A program made the position numbers and the translations under genes. A stretch of DNA of 64,000 bases, taken from the NCBI GenBank assembly GCA_021234155.1, contig JAJEKV010000112.1, positions 2,098,282-2,162,281 of the forward strand, written 5' to 3'. The notes beneath the pieces were generated by a model. The model saw nothing but the letters and a program-made list of their open reading frames with translations, had not been told where the DNA came from and did not search any database. Each line of letters starts with the position of its first letter. Within the stretch, counting starts at the first letter, position 1. The DNA comes from Isoetes taiwanensis (lineage: Eukaryota; Streptophyta; Lycopodiopsida; Isoetales; Isoetaceae). Below are positions 24,061 through 47,708 of this stretch, piece by piece.

Positions 24061-24760
24061 CCCCGGATCACATGAAATCCTTTAAACGGGACCAGTACAA
24101 TTTTTAACTAAGCATTGTGGAGATCAATGGAGCTAATCCTGCCGAAGCTTGAACTGTCGGGGTTATAAATACCTAGGGTCAATGCTCAAGCAATATTATG
24201 GTCAATGCTTTTAAAATTATGTTTCTACTAAAGTGTTTTGCATGGTTGTAAAGGTGAGAAGTTAAATAAGAAAAGTGACATAACAATTTGCATAAAGTCT
24301 CTATCGAAATGAAAATTGCCCTCATTTGTTTCTTTCTCAACATCAAAGTGATCTAGAAGTCGTATTTAATTAAAGTGGGATTCATTCCATTCCCATTTTT
24401 TTTCGGAACCCTGTTAATTTACATAAAAAGGAGCACCTCGACCCGAAAACTATCCTTAATTCGAATTTTTGAATAAAACTCTGCATTCCAGCTTTGCTGC
24501 AGTTTTCCCTGGTTAGCGAGTCGAGAACAAGAACAATGCAACTGAAACAAAGGAAATTCATTAAAGATTGAAACCAAAGAACTAGTTGAAAAAGAATTTT
24601 TATTAATAAATTGAATAGGTACAATGTATTTTACATCGGACGCTTGAGACCATGGCGATCTTCTTTGTCACCACAGATTATCATCTTGGTAGGTGGTCCA
24701 CCTTAGGGGATTAACTAGCGCGCTTCTTCACGCCGATTTGTAAGCCTTGGGGGCAACCTT
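24061..24760. other. Intergenic DNA up to the GC-rich island
   Basis: AT-rich sequence without a supported gene. Base composition rises sharply after about 24.64 kb, which I take as the left edge of the GC-rich island. Confidence 0.4.
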
Positions 24761-24779
24761 GAAGAGTGTGGAATGCCTC

Positions 24780-25163
24780 ACGTGGAGGTGCCTCTGCAGC
24801 CTTCTGCGGCCGACCTGTCCACCCGACTTCTCCACTCGCCTCCCGCATCTTTCATCGAATATGCTCCTTCCCCAACCTCGTGGATGTTATGCAATGCTTG
24901 CAAGATGCTTTGAGCTTCCTGGACTTTCTCTTTGTTCTTCGCTGTTCTTTATCCCGTGGTGTAGCGAGCAACCTCTCGAATTCGCGAGCAACCTTATCCT
25001 GCAGGGCAAGAGTGTAGCGTGACCGGGTCCGTGCCGGAATCGGTATTTCTTTAAGCCTTGAGCGGGATCTGTGCCCGGCTCGGCGGTCTCTGATGCCCGC
25101 GGGCTCTGTGCTCGTGGTCGGATCGTGCCCCGAACCACCGAGCAAGGAGAGTATGATTAACAA
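24780..25163 (-). pseudogene. Decayed coding segment 3' of the FCP1-domain gene
   Basis: On the minus strand one frame reads LQDKVAREFERLLATPRDKE. After a frame change it continues as QALHNIHEVGEGAYSMKDAG. Both are protein-like and hydrophilic, and the switch lies near 24.95 kb. No family is recognised. It follows the FCP1-domain stop by about 400 bp on the same strand, with two of the island's palindromes in between. It may be part of the same element or a neighbouring broken gene. Confidence 0.35.
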
Positions 25164-25270
25164 TTACGGTGCCATTAGTCAAAAAACGAAGAAAAGAATG
25201 TTGAAATCAAATTACAATGGAGAACATTCATTCCATACAACCGCATCCAATGACGTGGGAAGTAGTGTCT

Positions 25271-25477
25271 TTCTCGACTTCATGAGTCGAAAAGGCCCAT
25301 AAAAGTGAAACTACAACCATTCTCATTAGAATATGGTTGCATCCAATCACACACGGAAGCATACAAATGGTTTCGTCAACGAGACAACCAGTGCCTTTCT
25401 CGACTCGCGAGTCGAGAAAGGCCCAGGAAACGCAATGTACAAGCATGCCTTTCTCGACTCGTGAGTCGAGAAAGGCA
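25271..25477. repeat. Palindromic repeat cluster 1 (three copies)
   Basis: Copies lie at 25271-25293, 25393-25422 and 25446-25477. The second is a perfect 30-bp palindrome around the core TCTCGACTCGCGAGTCGAGA. The third has one central T and is otherwise symmetric out to TGCC/GGCA. The first is asymmetric (CTTCATGAGTCGA). They sit between the FCP1-domain stop and the decayed segment at 24.8-25.16 kb. Confidence 0.9.
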
Positions 25478-25578
25478 GCGAAAACTCAATATACAAGTAT
25501 ATTCATTACAAAATGTTCAATACATGTGTTCACGTTTGTTTACAATATTCACAAAATTTGACTATCTGAAAGCAGAGG

Positions 25579-26425
25579 TCACTCTTCTTGTTCACCAAAA
25601 TATTTGTCGTCCATAGCTTTCATGATCGCCTTGCTCTCTGGATCGGGTTCCGTGAGGCTCGGATAGTTCAGAAGCACATCGGCGACAAGAATGGCAAAGC
25701 GGGATTCTGCCAAGACAGGACACAGTCCGAAGGACAACCACCTATCCGTCTCATATTCTTCAGGTCGATATGGCTTAGCAATGATTGTATTTTGCGCGTT
25801 ATGATAGCACTTGTAGGCGGAGTCGTCTATGATCAGCGTGTTGTGTTTGCCATAGTCCTGGAATTGCTCATAAACCCTGTCCAGCCTTTTCACCATTATA
25901 TGCTTCCCCTTTGTGACGGCTGGATCGAGGTCCGACACATGCTCGACCCTTTCGTTTCCCCAAACGAACTTGAACTTCAAAACTGAAATGCCGAGAACAC
26001 CAAGAACATTGACAATATTTTTCTTTGCCATACAAGACCATACGGCCACTTTGAATCCCCGTTCCAGGCACCATTCAACAATTTCCTTAGCTCTAGGCCT
26101 CGGATACACTATTTTATGCTCCGTTTTGGTCGGGATCTGCGAGGTGTTAATCTCGGGGACGTCTTTATCGTGGTATACTGCAGCTAATACTCCATTGACG
26201 TCAAATATTACAAGCTTGGCGGGACCAGCTGGATCCCAGTTGGAGTTTGGCTCTGACCATATATCCGGTTCATCGGGATCCAAATGCGGGATCATTATCT
26301 TTTTTGATCCTTTAATCGGGCCGTGGAGCGATGTCTTGCTCGGATTGTCTTTGTCCTTTTCATTCTCCTCCTCGCGGCGTGAACCGCTGCCCAATGACAA
26401 TGATCCGAGTCGTTGACTGAATTCC
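25579..26425 (-). CDS. FCP1-like (HAD family) phosphatase domain, last exon
   Basis: The minus-strand ORF runs to 26526, but its first ~33 residues read through palindromic repeats. A TTTCAG acceptor at 26426 followed by EFSQRLGSLSLG marks the likely exon start. FCP1/SCP domains dephosphorylate proteins such as the RNA polymerase II tail. Motif I is FDVNGVL (ORF residues 108-114). The nucleophile Asp is kept, but the usual second Asp is Asn, as I recall for a plant subgroup written DVNGLL. Motif II is VAVWSC (160-165), and the motif III acid pair is IIDDS (232-236). So the fold is convincing but catalysis is uncertain. A donor GTGAGT at 26563 defines a 138-bp upstream intron holding two palindromes. 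The 5' exons are less certain. Confidence 0.72.
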
Positions 26426-26458
26426 CTGAAATGATGACATCCGTCGAAAAGGAACGAG

Positions 26459-26537
26459 TTTTTCGACTTCGCGAGTCGAGAATGAAAAGAAAAGGTATTG
26501 AAAGGAACGAGTTTTCTCGACTTCATGAGTCGAGAAA
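26459..26537. repeat. Palindromic repeat cluster 2, inside the FCP1 intron
   Basis: Copies lie at about 26459-26482 and 26513-26537 (forms CGACTTCGCGAGTCG and CGACTTCATGAGTCG). Both fall within the predicted intron 26426-26563 of the FCP1-domain gene, so the primary transcript would carry two adjacent hairpins. Confidence 0.85.
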
Positions 26538-26563
26538 CACCGATAGAGCAAAAGTAAACTCAC

Positions 26564-27117
26564 CTCAATCTCGGGTTTTCAAGAATGTGTTCGGCAAAGA
26601 TTCGTCCAAACCTTCGACATTCTCGCCTCCGTCGGCTTTGTCTCCCTCGTCCCCTCGCCGTCTTTCATTGCTTCCATTTGTCTTCCTCCCCTTGAAATGC
26701 TCATGAAGCGGATCCGGTATGACCGAATGGTTTCAACCATGTCCTTATTTCCAACCACGGATATAGGTTTCATTCCAAACAACATAGCCCCCTGAGAGAA
26801 CAGGCCATTCATGTACCACTCGCATACAATTTGATCTTCCTCGACCAAGCTGGTTATGAAGTACTTGATAACTCTTGGCCGGATAAGAATTCTATGTATA
26901 GGACCTGTCGCACCATCTTTGCTGACCTTGTCCATCGATGGAACATCCTCCATAAATCTGCCCCCTTCCGTGGTTCCATCCGCTCTTGAGAGATCATGAA
27001 CTTGTCGAGATAATAATGCTCGCTAGACCACCACTTATCCAGGTCGACCACCGATCTTGAAATCAAAACCAAAACTATGTTGGCAAAGCTTGGTGCCTTG
27101 ACAAGCCAAGTCTGCAC
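26564..27117 (-). CDS. Upstream exon region of the FCP1-domain gene
   Basis: Two overlapping minus-strand frames are open: 26579-26953 (includes GPIHRILIRPRVIKYFITSL, EEDQIVCEWYMNGLFSQGAM and GNKDMVETIRSYRIRFMS) and 26854-27117 (includes SVVDLDKWWSSEHYYLDKFM). A third frame reads RIFAEHILENPRL into a GTGAGT donor at 26563 and splices in phase to the FCP1 exon. I cannot join all of these without a frame change, so there are either undetected small introns, indels or pseudogenisation. No domain is recognised. Confidence 0.4.
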
Positions 27118-27700
27118 TCATGATCAAGTTCAGATATGGAGTGCATGATCTTGTTGGTGAAGTTAATATCACCTGCCCATTGGGAGACAGCAGTTGTCCG
27201 ATTGCCCCTAAGCATGCAAAAAGACAAGGAAACCGAAAGTATCCAGTCGGTCATGTCCGCATACCGCCTTGTACCAACGCTCTATGTCAGCTTTGTCATA
27301 AAAAAAAAAAGGGTGGGGTCTTCGATCATATTGATGGCAAATAGTGCCACGGGTCCAGTGCCGCCCGGACCACCAAATCCCTTGTGTCCCAAAGTTACCA
27401 AAATGGGGGGCTATATCGTCACTTTAAATGGGACCACCCCGAATCCAAGCTTCCTCTTCGTAATTGCCATAGCACGCTCGGAAAAGGAAGGGTTTTGACG
27501 CTACGCTTCAGCTTGGTGTTGATGTAGGGTTGACATAGACGGTTCAATTCCTTCATGTCTTCCTCATCAAGGGCAGCCTTTTCCTTGTAATAATCAAAAT
27601 CATGGTATTCATTAGATGCAACGTTGCGTAACTCCGTGATGCCTTCTTCTAACGCGACGCCGCTTTAGGACTGTGGCATAATCCTTTAAATCCCCGCATT
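27118..27700 (-). pseudogene. Broken coding-like sequence
   Basis: Short readable minus-strand pieces, such as NEYHDFDYYKEKAALDEED and AMAITKRKLGFGVVPFK, are separated by stops and frame changes. They continue the texture of the flanking exons, so they are probably part of the same gene or element in decay. No family is recognised. Confidence 0.3.
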
Positions 27701-27795
27701 TTAGAACTCATGGTCTTCCTTAGTAGGATTGTTCCTTCCAAGATTTTGCCTTGTAGGTCAAGCGTTTCTTTTGTCCGTCAGGCCCCAGATCCTCT

Positions 27796-28167
27796 TCATG
27801 AACCGCTTGTCAAACAACTTGGGGTCCGCCCGCTTGAAATTCTCCATTGCTGTCCTTCCGACTTGCCTCTTGTCCATTGAGCCCATATCTCAGTCCATTT
27901 CTCCCGCACCTCGGTGCTAAGAATGAGGTCATATTGGTCCGAGAGACTCCCCGCCTTTCCTTGGTGTTCTCTTCTTCTTCTCCTCTTCTTCCTCTCCCTC
28001 ATCATCTTCCCCGTCCCTCCAGTGAGAACATATCCGCATAGTTTCTCAAAGGTCTTCCACTTATCCGAGGGAGCCCTGTTTCCTTTAGGATGCTGAGGAC
28101 AACCCAATGCTTTCCATTGTTGCCTAGCGTGTATGATCTGGTCAGGATAAGGGCTGCATTCAGTCAT
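27796..28167 (-). CDS. Coding piece of the GC-rich island, unidentified
   Basis: A 123-residue minus-strand ORF reads IIHARQQWKALGCPQHPKGN, KWKTFEKLCGYVLTGG, then a basic stretch (RERKKRRRRRE) that could be a nuclear localisation signal, then DLILSTEVREKWTEIWAQW. It is protein-like and lies on the same strand as its neighbours. No domain is recognised. Palindrome cluster 3 lies between it and the next coding piece, which fits an intron. Confidence 0.4.
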   Translation of the reverse strand: MTECSPYPDQIIHARQQWKALGCPQHPKGNRAPSDKWKTFEKLCGYVLTGGTGKMMRERKKRRRRREHQGKAGSLSDQYDLILSTEVREKWTEIWAQWTRGKSEGQQWRISSGRTPSCLTSGS

Positions 28168-28230
28168 GTACCAATGTCAGAGCATGAAAGTATCTACAAA
28201 CACCTTAATAAACAAGAAATAGTAGCCGGG

Positions 28231-28536
28231 TTTTCTCGACTCATGAAATCGAAAAGTCCCCTTCTTTTACTTATTCGGGTTTTCTCGACCATGAAGTCGA
28301 AAGCTCTGCATCCTTTGATTTTCTTTGTTACCCCCCGGCTCCCTTGACTCGAAATGAAAACCCCAGTGATAATCGGGAAAACGTTAAGATGGTAGGGCTT
28401 TCTCGACTCGCGAGTCGAGAAATTCCCTTGAATGTCTAACTTTCTTTTACTTCTCTGGGTTTTCTCGACTCGCGAGTCGAAAAGCTCGCAACCTTTGGTT
28501 TTACGTGTTACCACGCTTTCGACTCGCGAGTCGAAA
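28231..28536. repeat. Palindromic repeat cluster 3 (five copies in ~300 bp)
   Basis: Copies lie at about 28231-28255, 28280-28302, 28399-28422, 28460-28483 and 28517-28536. The last is a perfect 20-bp TTTCGACTCGCGAGTCGAAA. The first two are degenerate (TCATGAAATCGA, CCATGAAGTCGA). The cluster lies in the gap between two minus-strand coding pieces, probably an intron. Confidence 0.9.
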
Positions 28537-28622
28537 CCCCCAAGATAATCGGCAAATGTTAGGATTCGAGAGTTATTTACCTTCACGTAGCTCGCGACTC
28601 GCCGCTATTGTGTTCGCGGTGG

Positions 28623-29278
28623 CTAATCTTGCCGCTTTCGTTCTTGGCGTCTCCGTAGAAAGAACTCGCACTCTCGCTTGGCATATCTATCCTTGATCCT
28701 TTGCGGCACCTCCTTCTCCGTCAATCCCGCAATACTTGCGCCCGCCCTAATCATCGTTGACCGGTACAACCCGTAACCGGACGCCCTTTCCCTTGGATCT
28801 TCCTCGGACTTCCAAAAACAACTCACCGGTCGATGCGCTAAAAGGTATGACATCCGCAGCATTGGATCTGCAACGGATGTCGCACCATCGTTGAGAATCT
28901 CCAAAGATGTGTGTCGGATTAAATTCCAATGGTTGAACAAGACGGCATCTCCCCGGTAAACCTTCAGTGCCTAATGTCCAGAAGCAGCTTGTGTGATATT
29001 CCCAACGGATAATACCGAGCGGCCCGCTCCATTTTACATGCCCCTCTGTGAAATCCTGATCCGATCATCCGATCCATTATTGGGGAGTCGACCATATCTT
29101 CGCCTCCTTCGCATCCGATTCCTCCCGTGGTGTCATCTTCCCCATCTTTGTTTTTTGGTGGACTTTTTTGTGTATGAACCACAACTTGATTCCCCACTGC
29201 AGAGTGTTGTAGAGTCTTCAGCACAGTAGAAGTGAAGCTCCCCGTATTGAACAGTTTTTCCCGACTGAAAATCTCCAT
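28623..29278 (-). CDS. Coding pieces of the GC-rich island, unidentified
   Basis: Two minus-strand frames adjoin: 28964-29278 (ends with CKMERAARYYPLGISHKLLL) and 28623-28940 (FNHWNLIRHTSLEILNDGAT, then SYLLAHRPVSCFWKSEED, RASGYGLYRSTMIRAG and KEVPQRIKDRYAKRECEFF). The second frame continues the first if one or two bases near 28950 are ignored (VYRGDAVLFNHWN), so there is a frameshift or an assembly indel. The peptide is convincingly protein-like. I recognise no family. Confidence 0.45.
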
Positions 29279-29486
29279 TCCAAGCTCCCCGATGTTAGGG
29301 TTCCGCCTCCTTCATCCCTTCCGGATCCTTCCACCCAAGGTTCTCGACAATTTAAAGGCGCTGCCTTTTTTTCGTGCCCTTCGCCTTGCTCATGGAAGAG
29401 TGAGAATAATTTGAAACCGCTAATTTTCTGGTGTGATAGAACTTACTCTTCCGGCGGTCCTCGACATGTAGTGTTAAATGCTTCAA

Positions 29487-29840
29487 TCATGGCGAGACGG
29501 AGAGCACAACACCGATTTTCTTGTACTTGTCTCCTGAGCTCTTCTTGTCCCTTTGGTGGAGAAACAGATCTTTCTCCTTCCCACTTGTTGATACCTCGAC
29601 ATACCACCAAGAATCTGGCTGGTGTGTCAAGAAGCTCTTCTCCGGTCCCTCGATGACGAAGAACGGAGTTCGCCGCTGATCACTAGTGAGTCCGAGGTGA
29701 ATGCCGCAAGAAGAAAGGATGGATCGCTTAAGGTATTCCGACAAAAGAAAAACCTCGAGCTCACCCGGGGTGTTAGTCTTCTTCTTCTTGCCGCCGCTAG
29801 AACTAGCATCCCCTCCCGGCCGCTTCTTGGGAGTCGCCAT
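29487..29840 (-). CDS. Probable first exon of the island gene
   Basis: The 117-residue minus-strand ORF begins MATPKKRPGGDASSSGGKKK, a typical basic, nuclear-type N-terminus. It continues with ELEVFLLSEYLKRSILSSCG, TPFFVIEGPEKSFLTHQPDS and WWYVEVSTSGKEKDLFLHQR. It is the 5'-most coding piece on this strand, so I infer that it starts the gene whose later pieces run down to the FCP1 domain at 25.58 kb. That linkage is unproven. No known domain is recognised. Confidence 0.45.
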   Translation of the reverse strand: MATPKKRPGGDASSSGGKKKKTNTPGELEVFLLSEYLKRSILSSCGIHLGLTSDQRRTPFFVIEGPEKSFLTHQPDSWWYVEVSTSGKEKDLFLHQRDKKSSGDKYKKIGVVLSVSP

Positions 29841-29929
29841 GTCTGATGCCCTCTCATCCTCTTCTTCGACCCCTCTCAGAATTAAGTCTCCTCCGCGTTG
29901 TGAGTTTTAGGACTGCATGTAAAAAGATC

Positions 29930-30700
29930 GGGCGTGTTCTTTAGTTTGAATTTAAGGACATGCAATCATTTATGAAAAAAAGCGGGCTAAGGGTACAAAG
30001 ACGGTCGGCTTTAGCCCGCCCAAACACCAAGCTTCAAATTTAATCACATCAAGGGACTTAGTGAGCTGAGCGAAGTTTATCTTCAACTGCGGCATTGGCG
30101 ACCTCTCGAAGTTCGAGAAAGAGCATCGAATCGTAGTTTATCTACCGGAATGGCGCCGCGACGCTGTAAGCCGCTAACAACGCTTTGAATGTGTTTTTCC
30201 TGGTCGCGCCCCTATTGCAAGCAGTTGATTTGATCGATGAGCACGAGCTAAGGTGGGAAGCGGAGAGGAGCCGCCGCATTACCTGAACTCTACACCGCGG
30301 CGCCATGGAACGGGATACGAGAATCGCAGCGATACAAGTATTAGATGAGAGTGCACTCTTGATGAGACCGGCGTAAGAAGCAAAGACTCTCGAGGTCATG
30401 GATCCGCGATACAAAGGCCCAAGGAATTTCTCGTGAAGAGGTGAGTTTCGTGAGATGCCTCGTATTATTTTGGCGGTAGAACATGCCGCCCTGTTTTAAA
30501 TCATGGAACTGCTCATAAGCTCGACGGGTTTATTGTTTCCTTGTCCAGCATTTTTCAGCTTCGAGAGATGATTTACTCTCTGGGTTGAGAGATGCTCGGC
30601 AAGGAAACAATGGATCGGGGGTAAACTTGAACAGATCCATTTTAGGTGTATTTTTTCTTGGAATGTTTTCTTGGAATGTTGTATATAGATCAGGCTAGGT
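29930..30700. other. GC-richer DNA without a supported gene
   Basis: A 90-residue minus-strand ORF (30142-30414) has no recognisable domain. The sequence TTCGAGAAAGAGC and similar phrases hint at degraded versions of the island repeats. Otherwise I see nothing. Confidence 0.35.
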
Positions 30701-30730
30701 CTAAGGCCCAGGAGATGCGGTTCAAATGCA

Positions 30731-31870
30731 TCCTCCTGTGGTTAGTCAGAGAGGCCTCCACCCAGTCGGAACCACTCCTCTTCGCAATATTCGAGGAAGA
30801 TGGTTCGAAGGAGAGTGGCTCAGACAGGCTAGAGGCACCTGGGACTACAAACAGGAGAATACAGTGCTTGGTTGTAGAGACCTATGCTAAGACCCAAAGG
30901 CCTGCAGACAGTCAGGGCCACTTCCCTTCGCAATATTCGAGCAGTATAGTTTGAAGGAGAGTGGCTCAGACTGTCTGCAGGCACCCGGAGAATGCACGGG
31001 AGCGGGTATTGCTATGTGGGATTGGGCTAAGGGATTCTCGACTTGCGAGTCGAGAATGTGAGCCTTAGCTTCCTCTCTGCAATCTCGATTTGGGATGATG
31101 TTTGAGTTAGTTTTATTCGCACAAAGGAAAAATATGTGGTTTGGCCGTGGTTTTTAGGATAAATGTCGAGGTTTACTAAAGTCATTACGTAATAAAATAT
31201 CCTTAGTAATTTATTCCACAGTTGAAGATGGTTCCAAGGAGAGTGGCTCCCCCGGTATTCGGATGGTTTGACACTCGGTGCTAAGAGGCCACACACAAGA
31301 GAATTGGTTGGCTAGAGGATTCTCACTAAGCGAAATGGTAAAATCGACATTGTTGGTTTCTCATGCCTACATTCTCGACTAAGAAGTCGAATGCCTTTAG
31401 CCATCGAGAACTCCGATGGTACACATGGAGGCCAGTTAGGTAAGGCATTCCCACCGCGAGCCGAATGCATCCAAAGAAAACTTCAGGGTTTCCCTGTGGT
31501 TGGTTGTAGGGTATCCACCCGCCGAGCCCACCCTCCATATTCACAAGATGGTTCAAGGAGACGGCTCTTTGACCGGTAGAGGCCATCGCTACCACAATAA
31601 TGTGAGAATTGGTTGTTAGAGTTAGCTCACAGACAAATAAAACCACTTCCCTTCGCAATATCCGAGGAAGATAGTTTGAAGGAGAGTGGTTAAGACTGCC
31701 TCGCAGCCAGCCAGCGTAATCCACTAGAGTTTCGGCCGACTCACGAAATCGAAAACCGCCAGCACCTTCGGTGGTTAGTCGCCGAGGTCTCCACCCGCCG
31801 GAGCCCCCTCTTCGCAATATTCGGCGAGCATGGTTCAAGGAGAGTGGCTCGACCGGGTGGAGGCACCCGC
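30731..31870. repeat. Foldback module repeat, about six copies
   Basis: The phrase TTCGCAATATTCGAGGAAGA, then TGGTTCGAAGGAGAGTGGCT, occurs in varying completeness near 30.78, 30.93, 31.22, 31.55, 31.65 and 31.81 kb. Fuller copies are preceded by GAGGCCTCCACCC and followed by GGGTGGAGGCACC. The two are reverse complements, so each module is an imperfect foldback of about 100 bp centred on AATATT. Spacing is irregular. Confidence 0.75.
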
Positions 31871-32075
31871 GACCGCACAAAGGGCTATTGATTAGAGGAT
31901 ATTCTCGACTCACGAAGTCGAGAAGGCCGCAGCAGCTTAAAAAGAATGTGAAGACGCTGGTAGCCGTGTGTAATCCGATCGCGAAGTCGAGAATCCTCAC
32001 CAGCCAAATTCCAGTAGTGTACACTCCCTCTTCTCACCCAAGAAGTCGAGAAGTTCTCGACTCGCGAGTCGAGAA
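31034..32075. repeat. Palindromic repeat cluster 4 (about six copies)
   Basis: Copies lie at 31034-31057, 31371-31392, 31731-31756 (degenerate), 31901-31924, 31976-31994 (half-site) and 32054-32075 (perfect 22-bp). They are interleaved with the foldback modules. Just before the last copy is an extra half-site, AGAAGTCGAGAAG. I found no clear copy of this palindrome outside 25.27-32.08 kb. Confidence 0.85.
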
Positions 32076-32414
32076 GAAGGCCTGTACTTCCCGGATGGCA
32101 AGCCGAGGTATTCTCAACTCGCCACTCCCTTCCCGCATGTCTCCTGCAGTGGGAGGATATGTTGTGAGTTAGAAATGCATTCTCGTGAAGTAATTCCTAT
32201 TCTTAGTTCTCGGGGGAGAAAACATTCCTAGTTATGTTCTATTATGAAACATTCTTAGACAGTTTAGCTATATCTTTTGTGAATCTCTCCTAGTAATGTT
32301 CTGTTAATGCTCTGCAATATCTTACTTACTAACACCTATCTCTGATGATTTCTATCTCGGTTGCTTGCTACTACTTTACCACTACTCTCACTTGTGCCCG
32401 CATAATGTATTCAA

Positions 32415-32555
32415 TTCAACAGAGAGACTAGTGAGATTAATGAGAAAACAGATAACGTAGAGACTAGTGAGATTAATGAGAAAAAGAGAACAAAGGAGAC
32501 AAAATGAGATTAATGAGAAAACAGAGAACAGTAGAGAGAAATGAGATTAAAAAGG
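32415..32555. repeat. GAGATTAATGAGAAAA tandem repeat
   Basis: Four copies of GAGATTAATGAGAAAA (the last degenerate), some with AGAGACTAGT in front, are spaced about 35-45 bp apart. No coding is supported. Confidence 0.75.
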
Positions 32556-32599
32556 GTATGAAATTACAAAAACATACCGAAGATTTGCCGGATGAGGAG

Positions 32600-33136
32600 G
32601 AAGCTCCCGTGGTTCGATTCCATGTGGGTACGTCGTTAGCAAAGCGTGAATAAGGATTTGTCGGGTCAGAAATTGTATCGTGGATTAATAAGAACCTCTA
32701 ACAACGTAATATAAGTAAATATGCAGTAAAGGACTTACAGAAAACTAAAAAGCAGCAGTAAAAAAGGCCTCACTTTCTTCTCGTGCAAGAACGCTCGCCG
32801 AACACTCAATCAAGCGCGAGAACTTCGGCCATGGAAGCTGCCTCGATCCGTCGACCAAGCCGCCGGCCATAAGATGGCCTTGGAATGGCTCGGTTCGATC
32901 GATCGCCCGATCGAAGACCGGGCTTAAGGAAAATACATAGCCAAAGAGTGATCGTGAGAGAAAACAGGGAGGAAGAATGGTTTGGGGAGAGGAAGAGGGT
33001 GCAAGCACTCGGGCCGCACCCTCAACCCTCGTGAAAAGTGCAATAATAAACTGTCACGCGTGGGCCATGCCCTCCATGACGTGGCGGTCTTGAGTTCTTG
33101 ACATGGCCACGCTTTCAGCCTCTGAGGAGGCGCCAC
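32600..33136. other. GC-rich right margin of the island
   Basis: Minus-strand ORFs of 70-87 residues lack recognisable domains. The phrase GGCCACGTGGC-like sequence near 33.13 kb and TCGATCGATCGCC near 32.89 kb are palindromic. Base composition falls abruptly after about 33.14 kb. Confidence 0.35.
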
Positions 33137-33139
33137 GTG

Positions 33140-33435
33140 GCCATGACAAGATATTAAAGGTTATGTTATATGTTTATATATGTTATCTTATGTTATATAT
33201 TTAATATGGTTTCAATGGTTGAATAGTATTAAAGGTTATATATGGTTACAATGTTTACATATGGTTTACAATGAATATGGTTGTATGGTTTAATATGGTT
33301 ATATGATTTTAGTTAATATGGTTGTATGATTTAATATGGTTTAATATGGTTATATTTAATATGTTTGTATGGTTTTATATGGTTCATATGGTCATATTTG
33401 TGGTGTTTGGGGCTATATGGTTTTAATGTGAGCTT
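33140..33435. repeat. TATGGTT low-complexity block
   Basis: Irregular repeats of TTAATATGGTT, TATATGGTT and GTATGGTT fill about 300 bp directly before the DUF7869-type pseudogene. The block could be a degenerate microsatellite. Confidence 0.7.
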
Positions 33436-33439
33436 TTTC

Positions 33440-36329
33440 ATTCAGGGAGCATGTGAGAGGAGTAAAATGGAGCCAAGGAAGTCCAGCAGAGAGCATTGCC
33501 CTAGGCTCCAATGGAGGAAGATGGGTTGCCTTTTGTTGCACCCTTGCAGCCAGACGGTATTTGCAGAGGGCATAATAACTGCAGTTGATCCATTTGATAG
33601 TGTGAATGATGAAAGGCTGGGAGATGAACATCTTGGAGTTGGCATTGTGAAGCTTCTTATCGAAGTTGATACAATCATGTCCCAGGGAAGCTCTAGTGAT
33701 TGCATTGTGTGCTCAGGGCTCTGGAGTCCCAAGCTCGCTTGAGATGGCCAATTAGATATATTACACACAAGAATGGTGATACTCTAGAATGCCCTACTGA
33801 ACTACACACCCCAAGGCCCACCCAAGACCATGTGGAAGATTTGGTGGTCGATGAGCATCCTTTGATCACAAGGAAGAGACGCTATGTTTTTCATAAAAGG
33901 CAGCCAAGGGTGCCCAAGAGGCCTAGAAGTGACAAATATTTAGAAAGGGTGGAAAGTATGGCACCAACCAAAGAAAACCTAGAGGCAATTAGGGGTCAAG
34001 AGTGTTGCAACCTAGATTGCACAGTGCAGTACAATGTGGATGACCTCGTGCAGATAAGGTCCCAATACATTGGACAGCTTCAAAAAGATAGGATTAATTT
34101 CATTTACTCCTTGTGTAGGAATTCCAGCTATGATGAAAACACAGGAAGGCTACTATATCAATTGAGGGGCATGAAGGTATGTATGAGAGCATTGAGATGG
34201 ATTCTTGGGGTGAGCAAGTCTTCATTTTACGTTTAATCGAGCAGTTAGAAAAGGGCACAGTTTGTTCCAACATGGTAATGCACTCACTTTGAAACCTAGA
34301 GCAAATACTCTCAAGGCCATTGCAGTCTTCGAGAGCTTTGTGAGATACATGTCTCAATCTATGCCCCACAAGTCGAAGGTGAACGAGCACGGTGTGCGAG
34401 TGGTGCAAAGAGTGTTGCCACAACACTATATCCAAAAGGAGTGCCTTAAGGAGGTCAACTCCATCCCGAAACCACCGGAGGTAGGCCTCTTTCTCAATCA
34501 CATTTCAGCAAGTTATGGAGCACTCACTTCTCGACGCGTGAGTGTCCTACAACACATGCCATTCTCAAAGTGCAACACTTGCATTCAACTCAAGGATACA
34601 CTTGCATCAACCGCAATAGAGAAAGAAAGAATGGCAATTAGGGAGCAATTTGCGGATCACCAAAGGGACCAAATATCATGTAGACAGTTGTATTGGCAAA
34701 GGAGAACATTTTCCTCGAGATGCACCCGGACAAATTTTTGTGTATAATTCATGATAAGATGGACCAACACAAGACTTTCTTGCCAAAGCTAGATCCTTTA
34801 CCCAAGCGTTGTCAAAAACGCCGTATGAAAGTAAGTCCGGCATGGTGTCTTAACACATGGTCATGGAACCGAACATATGGTCATTTTGTGCTTGATCTAT
34901 GGAGGGATGATCCAAACTTCCATGTGAGCTCTATTTTCAAGTGTTTGAGAACACTAGAGAAAGGAACAATAGAAGGGAGGAGGTATTCCCCTTCAAAGAC
35001 CCATTTTGAGGCTTTGATGGATGATCAACCGCTTTGTTACCAAAGGCGGATAAAAAGGGCTCACATCCAAGGTGTCTAGTGAATCAAGGAGGACTTGGGA
35101 TGATTTCCCCTTACTTGAGAAACCACCGCCCGAGGAGCTATGTGTTCAATTGGACAACCTGTTGGAAAGAAAACAAGAATAGATGGATGTTTGGGGCAAT
35201 GTCATACTTGGACAAAGAAGGGGAGTATTCAAAGTTGTGAAAGTGGGATTCATGATGGTTGGGCATACGCATGATGATATAGATGGGTTCTTTGGAACCT
35301 TCTCCGCCAAGCTCAAGAGAGAAAAACGTGACTAGTCTACCTGAACTAATGGATGTGTTTGAGAGCTGCATTGACCCCAACCCAATGGCATTCTTGATGG
35401 ATGAGGTTGCAGATTGGAAATCATTTGTAGAGGGATACTTGCTAGATGGTAAGGACCAGTTGACAGACACACAAAGCCACTTCGGTTCAAGTTTTGGGTT
35501 AGGGATGGAATACCAATCAATCATGCAATATAAGTGGAGACCAGGTGACAAGTTGTGGATGCCCGTACAAGGAATCGAGTTGTGGCGCAGGGGTGTTTCC
35601 GGGTGAAATTCTCATTCCTAAAGGGCAGCCAAAACCACTACCTCCCTTCAAGACTGTCAAAGACTCTAGCCAACTAGTGAAGGGCATCAAGGATTACATA
35701 ACGCACTGGGATGATGTTCGAAATGGAAAGCACACCTCCATTCTTAAGAAAAATCAAATGGACTCCCTAATCAAGTACTGGGAGAAAGTTGTGACATGCT
35801 TAGAAACTGAACAACCATGTGGGAGGAAGCTAAGAGACGGGTTCTTGCCAGAGTCAAGATGGGAGGGTTCTCAAGGAGCAAGCACGTCTTGGGTCCTAAC
35901 AAGGGTTCCAAGTGGTTTGTGGGAAGTAAGACCTCAAAGCCAAAGTGGTTTGATCTCATCAAGGAAGGATACTTTGTGCTAGTAAGGCCTGATGATGAGG
36001 ATTGTCCAATATGGTTAGGGGTGGCACTCTCTGATGTAACCATCACTATGCCTGATGGAGAGGAGTTACGTCCTGGATTCCAAATTCAATATTGGGAGCC
36101 CATTGGGAGACACAAGAAAGGCAACTTGAAGGAGCAATACACCGACTGCTGGGAGAAGAAGTGGAGGGCAAATTATGCTGATCCTCAAAGGAGGGAATTG
36201 GTGGAGTGTGTGGTATGGTCATATCCAAGTTCTCACACTGCAAAGGAGAACACACGCAAGATCCCAAAAAGGAAGATGGACAAAGCCATGAGCAACCTCC
36301 ATGCTATATCATTGTATGAGGGTAGATAA
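33440..36329 (+). pseudogene. Frameshifted DUF7869-type transposon gene
   Basis: Consecutive plus-strand frames form one protein-like series. 33.47-33.75 kb (FAEGIITAVDPFDSVNDERL, then RWPIRYI) resembles the segment found in plant En/Spm-like transposon proteins. 33.75-34.23 kb ends GMKVCMRALRWILGVSKSSF. 34.23-34.65 kb reads FNRAVRKGHSLFQHGNA onward. 34.72-35.07 kb has IIHDKMDQHKTFLPKL and FVLDLWRDDPNFHV. Near 35.25 kb is VGHTHDDIDGFFGTF, the signature I associate with DUF7869 proteins. The last frame, 35817-36329, reads LIKEGYFVLVRPDDEDCPIW to a stop. At least four frame changes and a stop after GTFSAKLKREKRD make it non-functional. Assignment is by motif, from memory. Confidence 0.65.
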
Positions 36330-37830
36330 TATTGAGAAGCCTGAGAACTTTCTCAACTAGTGGTTTGTAAAATTTATGAGGAAAACAAGTAACCCAATTC
36401 TTTGTGTGTGATGTGTAATTCTATTCAAGCAATGAATTCAGAAATTTTTTTGTCCCATTTTCAGTCCGAGTCCCAAAATTCAAGATTTGTCCCACTTTAA
36501 TTAAATACGACTTATCACCTCTTTATGTAGCTTACCTTATTTTCCAATGAAAATTGGCTGTGTTTTCATCTGCAAACGTAGTTATACAGTCCTAAATGCT
36601 GTTGTTTAAGATCAATTGGTTTAATATATTAGATGAGATTTGGCTTAACCACTAATTTTGCTAACCACAAGGTGTCATATTGACATAACTATAGTCCACA
36701 TATGATCCCCACATAACTGTAATCCACATATGATCCACAACAGTCTAAAAGTCCACATGGGGGCATCGTCACAATCACTTAATCCACCATATGTTTGTTA
36801 TTAGGTATAAGAACATACACTATAATGTGAATTAGTTGCTCCCTATAATGTGTTCGCAATCAAAAACAGTATTTTTCTAACATATGATTGTGGAAGATTA
36901 AATGTGGTGTTTGTATTGAAATACGTATTGGATGATGGTGGCACCTCGGTTTTGTTTGGAAACCGACGTGGAATTGTGTTAGAGAAGGTGCAGGCTTTTT
37001 CTTTTCAGATTTGGATTGGGTCGCGCGTGCATTGCTGTAGGTGTCGAACACTCAGGCGGATGCTAATTCGGCTGCATTAGGTGTCAATTTGCTTGCGTGG
37101 CGCCTATGCCACATGTACATTTTCTAAGCCTATGAATATGTAATGTTTTGTTCCTTGATGTTGTGTGTTGTTCATGCTTTGTTGATTGCACTTCGTTACT
37201 AACATCTGCAAACTTTCAGAGGGCTTTGGCCCCTGGGCATAAGGGAGACCCCCTCTACTGGGATCTCCCTTATGCTCGGATGAGCATTGGCATTGCGTTG
37301 GGGTACAGTTCCCCAAGCTCACCAATAAATTGTGTTCGTTGGCTTCCAGCCATTCAAGGAAACCACGCATAGGATCATCAAATGCATGCCATTGATAGCT
37401 GGAGCTTGGAATGGCAGCCAATGGCATGTGATTGATGGCTCCTATGCATGATCTGAGCGCATCGTCCAGGTAAGCCATGAGCTTTGGATTCATTTGGGGT
37501 TTGATTCCCCAGGCTCATGTGATTGTGTAATGTTCTTCATGTTGTTGGGTCATGGAGTGTTGTCATGCAGTAGTCTTTTATGTTGTTTTCATATTATATT
37601 GTATTAAAGCGAAAATACTATTTTATCCAATGGTCTGTGCTCTAAAAATGCCCCCCTCAAAGTTGGGTCAACAAGGGGCAGTTTGACTTGGAAAAGACTT
37701 GCTTTGGACGTTGTAGATTTGTGGAGAGGGAATATGTTGCCAGATATGCTGTTATCTAATGGTTGAGAAGCCATAATACAAGGTTTAGCCATAATACATG
37801 CTACCTATAATGTGAATTAGTTGCTCCCTA
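36330..37830. repeat. Segment bracketed by a ~25-bp direct repeat
   Basis: TATAATGTGAATTAGTTGCT followed by CCCTAT occurs near 36819 and again near 37804, about 985 bp apart. Inside is a hairpin (GCATAAGGGAGA at 37237-37248 and TCTCCCTTATGC at 37264-37275). The first ~490 bp of this entry (3' of the pseudogene) is plain AT-rich DNA. No transposon termini were found next to the direct repeats. Confidence 0.5.
37104..37493 (-). CDS. Unidentified 129-residue ORF
   Basis: The ORF starts MNPKLMAYLDDALRSCIGAI and continues SSSYQWHAFDDPMRGFLEWL and EANEHNLLVSLGNCTPTQ, which reads like real protein for about 70 residues. The rest crosses the hairpin at 37237-37275 and is poorer. No domain is recognised. 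It lies between the two direct repeats described above, so it may be a captured gene fragment. Confidence 0.3.
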   Translation of the reverse strand: MNPKLMAYLDDALRSCIGAINHMPLAAIPSSSYQWHAFDDPMRGFLEWLEANEHNLLVSLGNCTPTQCQCSSEHKGDPSRGGLPYAQGPKPSESLQMLVTKCNQQSMNNTQHQGTKHYIFIGLENVHVA

Positions 37831-44576: not shown

Positions 44577-47386
44577 CTAGTTGCATCCTCTCTCATAGCC
44601 TTTACTTTCTCCGTTACATCCCCTAATTATCCTTGCCTTATGTATACCTTGAACTTCATTACCTGCTGGCCCTGTATGCATATCTGCATATCTAACCCAT
44701 CCCTGAGTATCCATTTTTAGTTGGCTGCCCACATTAACATGTTCATTGCCATCTTGTCCATGCAAACTCCATCGTTGTAACTGCAATGTGATTTCTACAG
44801 GTCTGCTAGGCATTGGTCTACAAACAGGAATGTATCCATCAATTGACACTCTATATGCATCATGATCTTCAGAGCATAGGTGTGTATCCTCACGACTGCA
44901 ACCAATATAAGGTGATCCAGGCAACAAAGAACGATCCTCTGGGATTTGACTATCCTGAAACATATTTGGTGTCTCATCTTCTTGCTCGTCTACAACATGC
45001 TCTCCAAGAAAAACAGGTATAAATTGAGAGGCAGGGTCTTCTGCAGCACATGCATGCATTGCAACTTCATTAACATTATCATTTAGAAGAGCAAGTGGTG
45101 GAAGACCTTGCCTAGATCTCAGTCTATTCTTCACAGCCAATCTCTTATGCCTAGCAGCAACATCAAGGGGTCTCTGCTCTCTAAAAATTTCAGCAACTCT
45201 GGATTTGCCTTGTGGATAAAGAAAGAGTCTCAGCTTACGAGTGTTGGCCTCAAAATCCTCTTCAGCTCTCTTCCTTGACTCTCTCTCTTCCCTCCTCTGA
45301 CGAGTTCTCATAGCAGCAACCTCTTTCTCTACTTTCTTCCTTTGCTGCTGAAGCTTTTTAATGGCTACTTGCTCCTCCCGTTGCTTATCGGCCTTCTGCT
45401 CTCTTTGCTTTTTCCTCCAATAGTGCTTGGCAAAACTCCCTAGATGTGACATGACATCTGCCACCCAAATCCAGTATAATCTGCTTGCTTTTTCCTCTTG
45501 ATCGAGCTTCCTCCTGAATTGGGGCTGCCACACGTGCATGTTCAGGCAGTGGTAGTTGTGTTCTTCTTGCAGTGACCATAGTTTGAGCAGGAGCCAAAAC
45601 TCTAGAGGTACTAGCCTCATTACATAGAGGGAATTGTGTTCTTGCAGTAATCAGATTGCGTATGGGAGCCACATTATGTAGAGGCTGGTGTATTCTTGCA
45701 GTAAATACATTTTGGATGGGAGCCACATCATGTAAAGATATTTGACCTTCATCTTCAACAATTAAGGAATCTTCTACAAACCCAACACCTATCCAAAACA
45801 CTACAAAGATTAGTGTGCAACCACAATAAAATGAACTGAAATATGCCATTAAACAGGAGTATTACCCATTAACAAAAGAAATGAGATTAAAGGGGCAGCA
45901 TAAGCAAATTCTAAAGAGATATACCTGCAACCTCGCAGCCTTCTTCATGATAATCATTGTCCCATTCCTCATATTCATGTTCATGCATGGACATATTGAC
46001 ATCTTGTAGACCTTCATCATTCTCTGGATCATCATCATTCTCTTGCTCATTGTTTGGAACATGTGGACTAGCTGCAATCTCATCAGGAAGTTCATGAGGC
46101 TTCACTGCCATGGGTTTAAAAGGCCATATGCCTGTAGCTCTAAATCCGGAAATAATATTACTTGGAATCAAAGACACTTGAATTGCATCACATATCAATG
46201 ATGCAATATCTTCCTTCTTAGGCTCCACATTTCCTTTGACCTCCATATACTTTGCTCGGGCTTTCTTGAATGCTTGCTTGAATGGACCAAAGCAGGCCAC
46301 GTTCAAAGGCTGCAATTTATGTGATGTATGGGCAGGCAATATAACAAGATGGATTCCCATATCTCTCGCAGTTAAAATAACATCACATTCTACGTGGCTG
46401 CCATGTCCATCAATGATAAGAAGGTGAGGGCAATCAGTGCTAACTCCATCAGGCACTCTTGCTCTAAAATGTTGGAGCCATGCTAAGAAACATTCTGTTG
46501 TCATCCAAGCTTGTGGTTGCACTGCTTGTATTGCACCTTCTTCACACCCTGATATGTAATCAGCTCGCATCCTACTGGCCTTGAAAATGTAAAGGTTTGG
46601 TAGCCTATAACCCTCTGTATTTACACAAGCAAGTATAGTCACCCATTCTCGATTCTTCATGATAATTTCATGCACATTTTGTTGTCCCTTCCTTGCAATA
46701 ATCTTCATTCCACTTACTTTTCCAGCTTGAATGCCAGTCTCATCTGCATTCCATATTCTACTTGGTGGAAATTGGTACTGCTCATAGACTGCTCCCAAAC
46801 CAGCATAGAAGTTTGACAAATTCATGGAGTTAAGAGCTTTTGCACGAGATATGTCCAATGTTTCACAACTCCTTAATGCCACCTCAGGATGCCTGCCCTT
46901 AAACAAGCGCCACCATTTATATCCAGGTAGTCCATCCTTGCAATTTGTGGCCCTAGATCTGCAAAATTCTCCAGCTTTCTGCCTCATGACATCTAATGTC
47001 ACTCCCATTCCAGTGTCAACACTCTTCAAAGCCCATTCAACAAGCTCTTCTTCCTCATGTTTTGTTAGTAATTTTGGATGCTTTTGTTGTTTATAAGAAG
47101 CCCTGCCATAATGCTAATCTCTAATGGTAGATGCAGCAATACCATATCTACTACTTGCTCCACGAATTGAAATTAGGTTCTCACCTACCATGTCCAACAC
47201 CTCCATCATTTGATCTTCACTCCATGTTCCTCTTTGACCTTGAGTTGTTGTAGATGCATTGCTCCTCTTTGTTCTCTTGAATTTTCTCATAGAGGTAGGA
47301 GCTCTTACTCTCTTACTAGCTGGGTGCACCTTACTTGTGGTTGGATTGTCAATGCTCAAAGATACTCCTGATCTTGTGGTGACCAT
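44577..47386 (-). pseudogene. Pogo/Tigger-like DDE transposase gene, inactivated
   Basis: Start MVTTRSG at 47386; a helix-turn-helix (WSEDQMMEVLDMVGENL, then GIAASTIRD) is followed by a TAG at about 47114-47116. The same frame then continues EEEELVEWALKSVD into the DDE core. Catalytic positions: D in WNADETGIQAG, D in IIDGHGSHVE, and in LQPLNVACFGPF the expected third Asp (PLDV) is Asn. The frame passes a GTATAT donor at 45925 and rejoins at 45788 (136-bp intron), reading GVGFVEDSLIVEDEG. Next come about four repeats of a PLHNVAPIRNLITARTQ-type unit. Near 45.39 kb a one-base shift leads into a K/R/E-rich coiled coil and EIFREQRPLDVAARHKRL, to 44577. One stop, one frameshift and the D-to-N change argue that it is dead. 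TIRs were not found. Confidence 0.8.
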
Positions 47387-47708
47387 GGCTTCGATCTCAA
47401 GCAAAGATGAGTGCTTGGAAGCTTTGGGAGAGTTTGAATGCTGCAAGATTGTAGGATAGAACAGAGAGGAGGATAGAGAGGAGGCAATATAGACAAGGAA
47501 TTCCCTCCCATAATCTGAATTCAAATTTAACCCTATACACTTTGAATTCGAATCCATTCCTATGAGCATAGGTAAGATTATGGTACGTGATGAATTTTTC
47601 CATTGGTGCTCCTTCAAGAAATCCAGCATTTCTGTGAGAAAAAAGAGTAGAATTTTGGCGGCAAATCACAACGGATTTAGGGTAGTAGGATATTAGGTTA
47701 ATGAGGGA

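Follow-up and report, generated by a model that had tools for sequence, protein, structure and literature searches.

Family-specific palindrome arrays in DUF7869 transposons of Isoetes taiwanensis as candidate sites for an element-encoded DNA-binding protein

Introduction

Why does one short, GC-rich part of a plant contig hold a dense set of near-identical palindromes, and what might they do? The question is raised by a stretch of 64,000 nucleotides from the lycophyte Isoetes taiwanensis (assembly GCA_021234155.1, contig JAJEKV010000112.1, positions 2,098,282 to 2,162,281 of the forward strand), here called the window. A sequence-only reading of this stretch had described the palindromes and offered three roles for them: hairpins in unspliced RNA, protein-binding sites, or insertions of a very small foldback element. 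Here we report that the GC-rich island is part of one DNA transposon (family F1), that palindromes and element occur together, and that different transposon families with the domain DUF7869 carry their own palindrome in the same kinds of places. We judge it fairly probable that the palindromes are cis-acting sites for a dimeric DNA-binding protein encoded by the element itself, with a ParB-fold protein as the prime candidate reader in families F2 to F4. We infer that a protein binds, which protein does so and with what consequences.

The genome searched comprised 1,658,258,908 bases in 1110 contigs. The published assembly is nanopore-based according to the available part of its report (PMC8566536), so errors may underlie single-base insertions and deletions, broken frames and some of the centre variants.

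Results

The 20-mer TCTCGACTCGCGAGTCGAGA has seven copies with up to 3 mismatches in the window, between 25398 and 32074, and none in 100 shuffled windows searched in the same way. When degenerate copies are counted, 15 two-armed sites (at most 1 arm mismatch, centre of 4-5 bases) lie at 25272-32074. A 16th candidate at 24824 looks like chance and was left out; there are also unpaired half-sites, e.g. at 24519, 31985 and 32044. The sites form four clusters (25.27-25.47, 26.46-26.54, 28.23-28.54 and 31.04-32.07 kb), as the sequence-only reading had described, and its count of about 16 is right only with the degenerate copies included (15 two-armed, 7 near-exact). The sites are listed here with the search that found them; introns A and B are predicted introns of a leftward gene described below.

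25272..25292, strandless, imperfect palindrome (two-armed site search)
25398..25417, strandless, palindrome with exact core, perfect over 30 bp at 25393-25422 (20-mer and two-armed searches)
25452..25471, strandless, palindrome with 1 mismatch (20-mer search)
26461..26481, strandless, palindrome in predicted intron A (two-armed site search)
26515..26535, strandless, palindrome in predicted intron A (two-armed site search)
28234..28254, strandless, degenerate palindrome in predicted intron B (two-armed site search)
28283..28302, strandless, degenerate palindrome in predicted intron B (two-armed site search)
28401..28420, strandless, exact palindrome in predicted intron B (20-mer search)
28463..28482, strandless, palindrome with 1 mismatch in predicted intron B (20-mer search)
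28517..28536, strandless, palindrome, symmetric variant TTTCGACTCGCGAGTCGAAA, in predicted intron B (20-mer search)
31036..31055, strandless, palindrome, intergenic between divergent genes (20-mer search)
31373..31392, strandless, degenerate palindrome, intergenic (two-armed site search)
31734..31754, strandless, degenerate palindrome, intergenic (two-armed site search)
31903..31923, strandless, palindrome with 5-base centre, intergenic (two-armed site search)
32055..32074, strandless, exact palindrome, intergenic (20-mer search)

All of these sites lie within a 12,157-bp transposon, so that the whole island, which the earlier reading had not recognised as such, belongs to one element. Its perfect inverted ends enclose two genes, both of which appear broken in the window copy:

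24357..36513, no strand assigned, DNA transposon of family F1, holding every palindrome of the window (inverted ends, shared edge, paralog alignment)
24357..24380, + strand, left terminal inverted repeat AAGTCGTATTTAATTAAAGTGGGA, 24 bp perfect
36490..36513, - strand, right terminal inverted repeat, 24 bp perfect match to the left end
33461..36329, + strand, rightward gene, presumed transposase, broken frames (open reading frames)
35183..35332, + strand, DUF7869 (PF25273) piece of the rightward gene (Pfam, E-value (E) 7.1e-12)
25579..26425, - strand, NLI-interacting-factor-like (NIF-like) phosphatase domain (PF03031) of the leftward gene (Pfam, E 8.1e-10)
26564..29906, - strand, remainder of the leftward gene, with disrupted frames and no family match (Pfam and profile comparisons)
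26426..26563, - strand, predicted intron A of the leftward gene, GTGAGT...CAG (splice consensus only)
28154..28580, - strand, predicted intron B of the leftward gene, GTAAAT...CAG (splice consensus only)

The left edge at 24357 is common to five other copies (L001, L004, L005, L007, L008) with unrelated flanks; L009 departs from the other copies at the left tip. Long blocks of the window element align to paralogs at about 78-95%, and the NIF/FCP1-type phosphatase domain has an open frame in paralog L009 (E 4.8e-10). A 4-bp target duplication was found in 10 of the 14 F1 copies with both ends read, compared with 3 of 182 mispaired controls, and is not visible in the window copy, C16, L005/L012 and L009/L011. 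The first 23 bases of the F1 end have 4130 genome matches (up to 3 mismatches, both strands) against 8 for the control, which corresponds to about two thousand copies bearing F1 ends.

Within the window the 14-mer core with up to 1 mismatch is absent from the 51.9 kb outside the element, in agreement with the earlier statement that no clear copy lies elsewhere in the 64 kb. Confinement to a GC-rich island likewise holds within the window (GC content 0.44-0.49 at 24-33 kb vs 0.34-0.41 across most of the first 24 kb), where other GC-rich parts exist (0.41-0.45 at 12-18 kb, 0.49-0.52 at 61-64 kb), but it does not hold genome-wide. The exact F1 20-mer has 3786 copies in the genome and the reversed pattern none; with up to 3 mismatches, in the genome-wide search that the sequence-only reading had itself suggested, 12735 copies were found vs 28 for the reversed control, a spread that the reading had missed.

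The palindromes occur together with the element. Facing exact inverted ends enclose the palindromes listed on C1, C6, C10, C33, C35 (28.6-28.9 kb), C53, C60 and C76. Near nine other listed clusters no exact end was found: a degenerate end with 1-4 mismatches in 20 is present at five (L024, L050, L051, L052, L054), and four show family similarity only, over 2752 of 3001 bases in L053, 1705 of 4001 in L055, 1088 of 3401 in L019 and 559 of 3001 in L023, the last two alignments running largely through the palindrome arrays. No palindrome was found in clearly unrelated sequence among the loci inspected, a small part of the 3786.

Apart from their ends, relatives of about 4 kb, four of which were fetched whole (L015-L018), have little in common with the 12-kb form. 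L015, L016 and L018 contain several palindromes each, and L017 has one perfect 20-mer variant TCTCGACTCATGAGTCGAGA and a few degenerate sites, with no CGCG core found at up to 1 mismatch. Among themselves these four have about 1.2 kb in common at one end and at most 0.2 kb at the other; much of their interiors differs and looks non-coding, possibly through capture of varied DNA. An F1-type element of about 4 kb also appears to be inserted in an F2-type element at C1:1353011-1358475 (L001), because F2 palindromes and an F2 N-terminal domain stand just outside it.

Other DUF7869 families carry other palindromes, which the earlier reading had missed. Fourteen loci were sampled, non-randomly, from 150 listed of 9907 candidates: four (L046-L049) were picked by domain match and a long open frame, and ten further loci of 5.4 kb each were taken from the same list and scored for a perfect 12-base palindrome present at least 3 times. 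The F1 palindrome was not found at up to 4 mismatches in L046, L047, L048 or L049. Instead, GTATTCCGGAATAC is present in 5, 4 and 4 copies in L046, L047 and L048, respectively, and GTATGAATTCATAC in 5 copies in L049. Repeated perfect palindromes thus occur in all four of these loci and in eight of the ten further ones (12 of 14), L061 and L069 having no perfect 12-base palindrome 3 or more times; the controls gave 0 of 9 window tiles outside the element, sized as the ten loci, and 0 of 100 second-order Markov sequences.

The family motifs are CGACTCGCGAGTCG (F1), GTATTCCGGAATAC (F2), GTATGAATTCATAC (F3) and GTATAAATTTATAC (F4, up to 22 copies in 5.4 kb). When the window element and the 14 loci were scored at up to 1 mismatch, 14 of the 15 elements had one palindrome type each (F1, F2 or F3/F4) and L061 had none; the F3 loci L049 and L060 hold four F4-like sites as well. 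Genome-wide, the F2 20-mer has 1925 copies and the F4 18-mer 4415 (controls 0). The half-sites of F2, F3 and F4 have GTAT in common, and the next three bases are TCC, GAA or AAA; related proteins whose specificity has shifted would be expected to leave such a pattern. Two loci show mixtures. At L019:71-1000, F2-type sites and an F2-like open frame lie beside the F1 array, probably through nesting or adjacency, and at L063:612-707 a second repeated palindrome, GCGCAGCTGCGC, with 3 copies, accompanies the 3 F4 sites of the element.

The positions of the sites are similar across families. In the predicted gene model of the window element three sites are downstream of the leftward gene's 3' end, two in its 138-bp intron, five in its 427-bp intron and five between the divergent genes; none of the 15 lies inside a predicted exon, and both sites of the 138-bp predicted intron A also fall within a frame that is open across that intron. 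The earlier observation that the copies fall between coding pieces agrees with this model and extends to the other families: 4 of 126 F2-F4 sites overlap profile-supported coding sequence, against 75.1 expected from the coding share. The arrays track short tandem repeats of about 42-127 bp, with units of about 49, 68 and 127 bp.

Symmetry was assessed on 43 F1, 30 F2 and 76 F3/F4 deduplicated sites (from 178, 62 and 105), which were preselected at up to 2 core mismatches, so that core conservation is biased; conservation drops beyond a half-site of about 7-10 bases, which is partly built in because the sites were chosen by their core. None of the 16 left-arm departures at F1 positions 2-8 is mirrored in the other arm, and positions 1, 9 and 12 are mirrored above expectation (4 vs 1.5, 8 vs 3.9 and 11 vs 4.0). 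At F3/F4 position 3, 6 of 9 departures are mirrored, which is the F3-F4 difference itself. Overall, 71 of 275 departures are mirrored in F1 (55.1 expected), 43 of 224 in F2 (43.4 expected) and 157 of 657 in F3/F4 (135.4 expected), and the mild excess in F1 and F3/F4 is carried mainly by few positions. Compensatory change between the arms, a check that had been suggested for the palindromes, is therefore seen as a mild overall excess in F1 and F3/F4 and is missing from F1 positions 2-8 and, as an excess, from F2. Most core changes are thus on single arms and some differences between subfamilies are symmetric, which would fit a symmetric dimer with two half-sites better than a paired RNA stem but would also be compatible with symmetrising conversion.

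In an alignment of 28 rows (the window and 27 paralogs) the palindromes are inherited with the element, and a clean empty site was seen in no row at the three palindromes covered; ragged deletions have removed part of one site in L009, L025 and L034. In a flank-anchored alignment of 28 rows palindrome CpG cells read TG, CA or TA in 6 of 300 cases vs 65 of 357 in the flanks, a lower share that is suggestive. Paralogs L004, L027 and L036 differ at window positions 25269-25296 by several bases together and in centre length, as if by half-site exchange or miscalls.

On the strand facing the presumed transposase gene, families F2 to F4 encode an N4/N6 DNA methylase and a ParB-fold protein, which may be one protein or two. 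The methylase (PF01555) lies on the strand opposite DUF7869, with E 2.7e-16 in L046 (F2) and 5.4e-15 in L049 (F3); its nearest NCBI models are adenine-specific, with scores far below their cut-offs. At least 17 of the 150 methylase matches listed lie 4.7-5.6 kb from a listed DUF7869 match on the opposite strand (counted by eye). The protein upstream of the methylase has a weak DUF6551 match in L046 (E 0.0086), and that of L067 (F2) a weak NCBI ParB match (E 0.039). A structural model of the L067 protein aligned best to ParB N-domains (Z 8.8-8.0), the top alignment having a root-mean-square deviation of 3.1 over 103 residues, and next to Noc (Z 7.7), KorB (Z 6.6) and sulfiredoxin, which has the same fold (Z 6.2). 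A PDB sequence search with the ParB alignment returned no ParB, just three weak unrelated matches. The model of this F2 protein points, with moderate confidence, to a ParB/sulfiredoxin fold. Profiles of the ParB-like protein or its N-terminal domain match 12 of the 14 sampled DUF7869 loci (E <1e-4, seed loci included), the exceptions being L061 and L063.

A methylase relic in F1, which motif-like parts of 26.6-27.4 kb had suggested by eye, was dropped as an idea because nine F1 segments reached no more than 6.3% probability in hhalign against profiles of the methylase, the ParB-like protein and the N-terminal domain. For DUF7869 itself, conserved Asp positions were noted by eye, and the fold model has a mean predicted local distance difference test score (pLDDT) of 36.7. 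A search for distant DNA matches among plasmids gave no match, as expected. Elsewhere in the window, 45911-47665 on the - strand holds a long open frame for a Tc5/pogo-like transposase (DDE_1, E 3.8e-23; HTH_Tnp_Tc5, E 1e-5) that is unrelated to the palindromes.

Discussion

Among the three roles offered earlier, a protein-binding site fits best. The palindromes would act as recognition sites for a sequence-specific dimer encoded by the same transposon family. The sites, which occupy predicted introns, the region between the divergent genes and the flank past the leftward gene, would have multiplied with short tandem repeats, and protein and site would evolve together, so that the palindromes diverge between families. 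In F2-F4 the ParB-fold protein may dock on the palindromes and so enable the element to mark its own DNA, shield it or regulate it; for F1 the candidate readers are the leftward protein and the DUF7869 protein. In bacteria, palindromes of 13-16 bp are the binding sites of ParB, Noc and KorB. The most likely outcome would be anti-silencing or self-marking, favoured because the sites lie throughout the element and not at its ends; autoregulation or help in transposition are the alternatives. More tentatively, and in our view rather doubtfully, the ParB-fold protein and an adenine/N4-cytosine methylase could form a self-recognition system of bacterial ancestry in DUF7869 (Sola1-like) elements, reading parS-like palindromes, with F1 having kept the sites while its reader was replaced or reshaped. 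The element would then be coated or chemically marked, and self told from host and rival families.

Several observations weigh against the recognition-site reading. The L067 model has modest confidence (mean pLDDT 52, with 70-86 only at residues 251-290, 321-350 and 371-390), Foldseek alone gave E 0.028 with ParB-like PadC as top match, and a Z near 8 borders on the alignment tool's threshold for a telling match. In F1 neither Pfam nor hhalign (probability at most 6.3%) detected a ParB-like or methylase gene, so that the best candidate reader leaves out the window's own element. L061 is without a repeated palindrome, L069 has a ParB-like gene yet only 2 weak palindrome copies, and L063 has palindromes yet no ParB-like match below 1e-4. 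The F1 locus L019 also contains two F2-type sites, a mixture that probably comes from an adjoining F2 element because a neighbouring open frame resembles the N-terminus of F2 DUF7869 proteins. Young copies are equally conserved in palindromes and flanks (98.1 vs 97.8%), and the CpG contrast is unpolarised and is driven by four flank sites (57 of the 65 cells) in related rows.

Clustered subterminal motifs of CACTA or hAT elements assemble the ends for excision, and the palindromes could be transposase binding sites of this kind, which we regard as unlikely. The ends of the window element (24357-24380 and 36490-36513) and of L046/L056, L048/L057 and L049/L059 seem to hold fragments of the half-site of their family. 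The F1 ends start with AAGTCG and the F1 half-site contains AGTCG; the F2 right end holds GGAATATTCC, built of F2 half-sites, and an F3 end holds AAATTTATA. Most palindromes of the 4-kb elements L015, L016 and L018 are found about 0.75-1.4 kb inside one end. The window sites, however, are spread over predicted introns and intergenic sequence at 0.9-7.7 kb from the left end and are not grouped near both ends; the overlap with the ends is a post hoc observation, without statistics, that spans 5-9 bases. The half-site as the tip of the inverted repeat fits F1 and matches the F2 and F3 ends loosely, and was kept as part of this alternative only.

Functionless by-products, i.e. hairpin-prone sequence expanded by slippage and symmetrised, would account for arrays that track units of about 49, 68 and 127 bp, for symmetric variants such as those at the mirrored F1 positions 1, 9 and 12, and for the lack of extra conservation of the palindromes in young copies. 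They would not lead one to expect different motifs at the same genic positions in several families, a shared GTATnnn in the F2-F4 half-sites, palindromes in 4-kb elements that share little but their ends, or the near absence from coding sequence, and we consider this origin quite improbable. Structured RNA hairpins with a part in transcript processing or as a source of small RNAs are less probable still. Such hairpins agree with the sites in predicted introns and intergenic regions, with perfect stems of up to 38 bp in F2 and with the overall mirroring in F1 (71 vs 55.1) and F3/F4 (157 vs 135.4); the earlier suggestion of an RNA role is nevertheless disfavoured by F1 positions 2-8 (0 of 16 mirrored, though three other F1 positions are), by F2, which has no overall excess (43 vs 43.4), and by the use of one strandless, family-specific motif in introns, in the promoter region and beyond the 3' end. 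That each palindrome is a tiny mobile foldback inserted into the transposon, the third role offered earlier, is scarcely credible: high copy number and dispersed positions are in its favour, but the 28 aligned rows hold no clean empty site, and all inspected loci place the palindromes in one transposon group. Discrete insertions with empty sites, as in miniature inverted-repeat or foldback elements, were not seen at three palindromes in that alignment.

Recognition sites for an element-encoded dimer have parallels in known systems. CACTA/En-Spm elements have subterminal TNPA sites, short repeats for an element-encoded binding protein that are partly inverted pairs; here the sites are not concentrated at both ends, are true palindromes and belong to a different transposase group. 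ParB-parS, Noc-NBS and KorB-OB likewise combine a ParB-fold protein with several palindromic sites per replicon, whereas the present case is a eukaryotic transposon with a linked methylase, sites that vary by family and predicted binding. The available text on the VANDAL elements of Arabidopsis describes VANC motifs of 8-9 bp that are read by an element-encoded anti-silencing protein (VANC), lie in introns, intergenic regions and ends, multiply in tandem and differ between related families (PMC5735166). Family-specific repeated motifs in non-coding regions are found here as well, and by analogy the element may run a self-recognition system of the VANDAL type; the likeness is one of motif arrangement, the motifs here are palindromes of 14-32 bp in a different transposon group, and the word palindrome is absent from the main text of that source.

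A closer match in gene content is Sola1-1_Ec32 of Ectocarpus, a large DNA transposon for which the available text reports one gene, opposite the transposase, that codes for both an N4/N6 DNA methylase and a ParB-like domain, and suggests that proteins of this kind, noted in algal transposons, attach to the transposon encoding them and modify it (PMC12477816). The gene arrangement of F2-F4 is similar. In contrast, family-specific palindromes accompany the genes here, while the available text names no target sites and its main text does not contain the word palindrome, and F1 has a NIF-phosphatase gene in the place of the ParB-methylase genes. The Sola superfamily has a 4-bp target site duplication and terminal inverted repeats of 11-1124 bp, as far as the available text states (PMC10741241). 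With 4-bp duplications in 10 of 14 F1 copies and 24-bp perfect inverted repeats in the window copy, the element resembles Sola by ends and duplications and may belong to it. A DDD transposase is a further mark of the superfamily, for which DUF7869 offers the conserved Asp positions noted above. The word DUF7869 was not found in a literature search, and no earlier report of such palindromes was found in titles and the starts of abstracts, in mostly open literature and excluding two sources that PMC12477816 cites.

This study provides, with palindrome arrays beside ParB-methylase genes, concrete candidate target sites for such proteins. The VANC idea, in which docking motifs diverge along with the protein that reads them, would also be extended to another group of transposons, in a lycophyte. 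Should the sites be bound, they would reveal how relatives within a genome escape cross-regulation.

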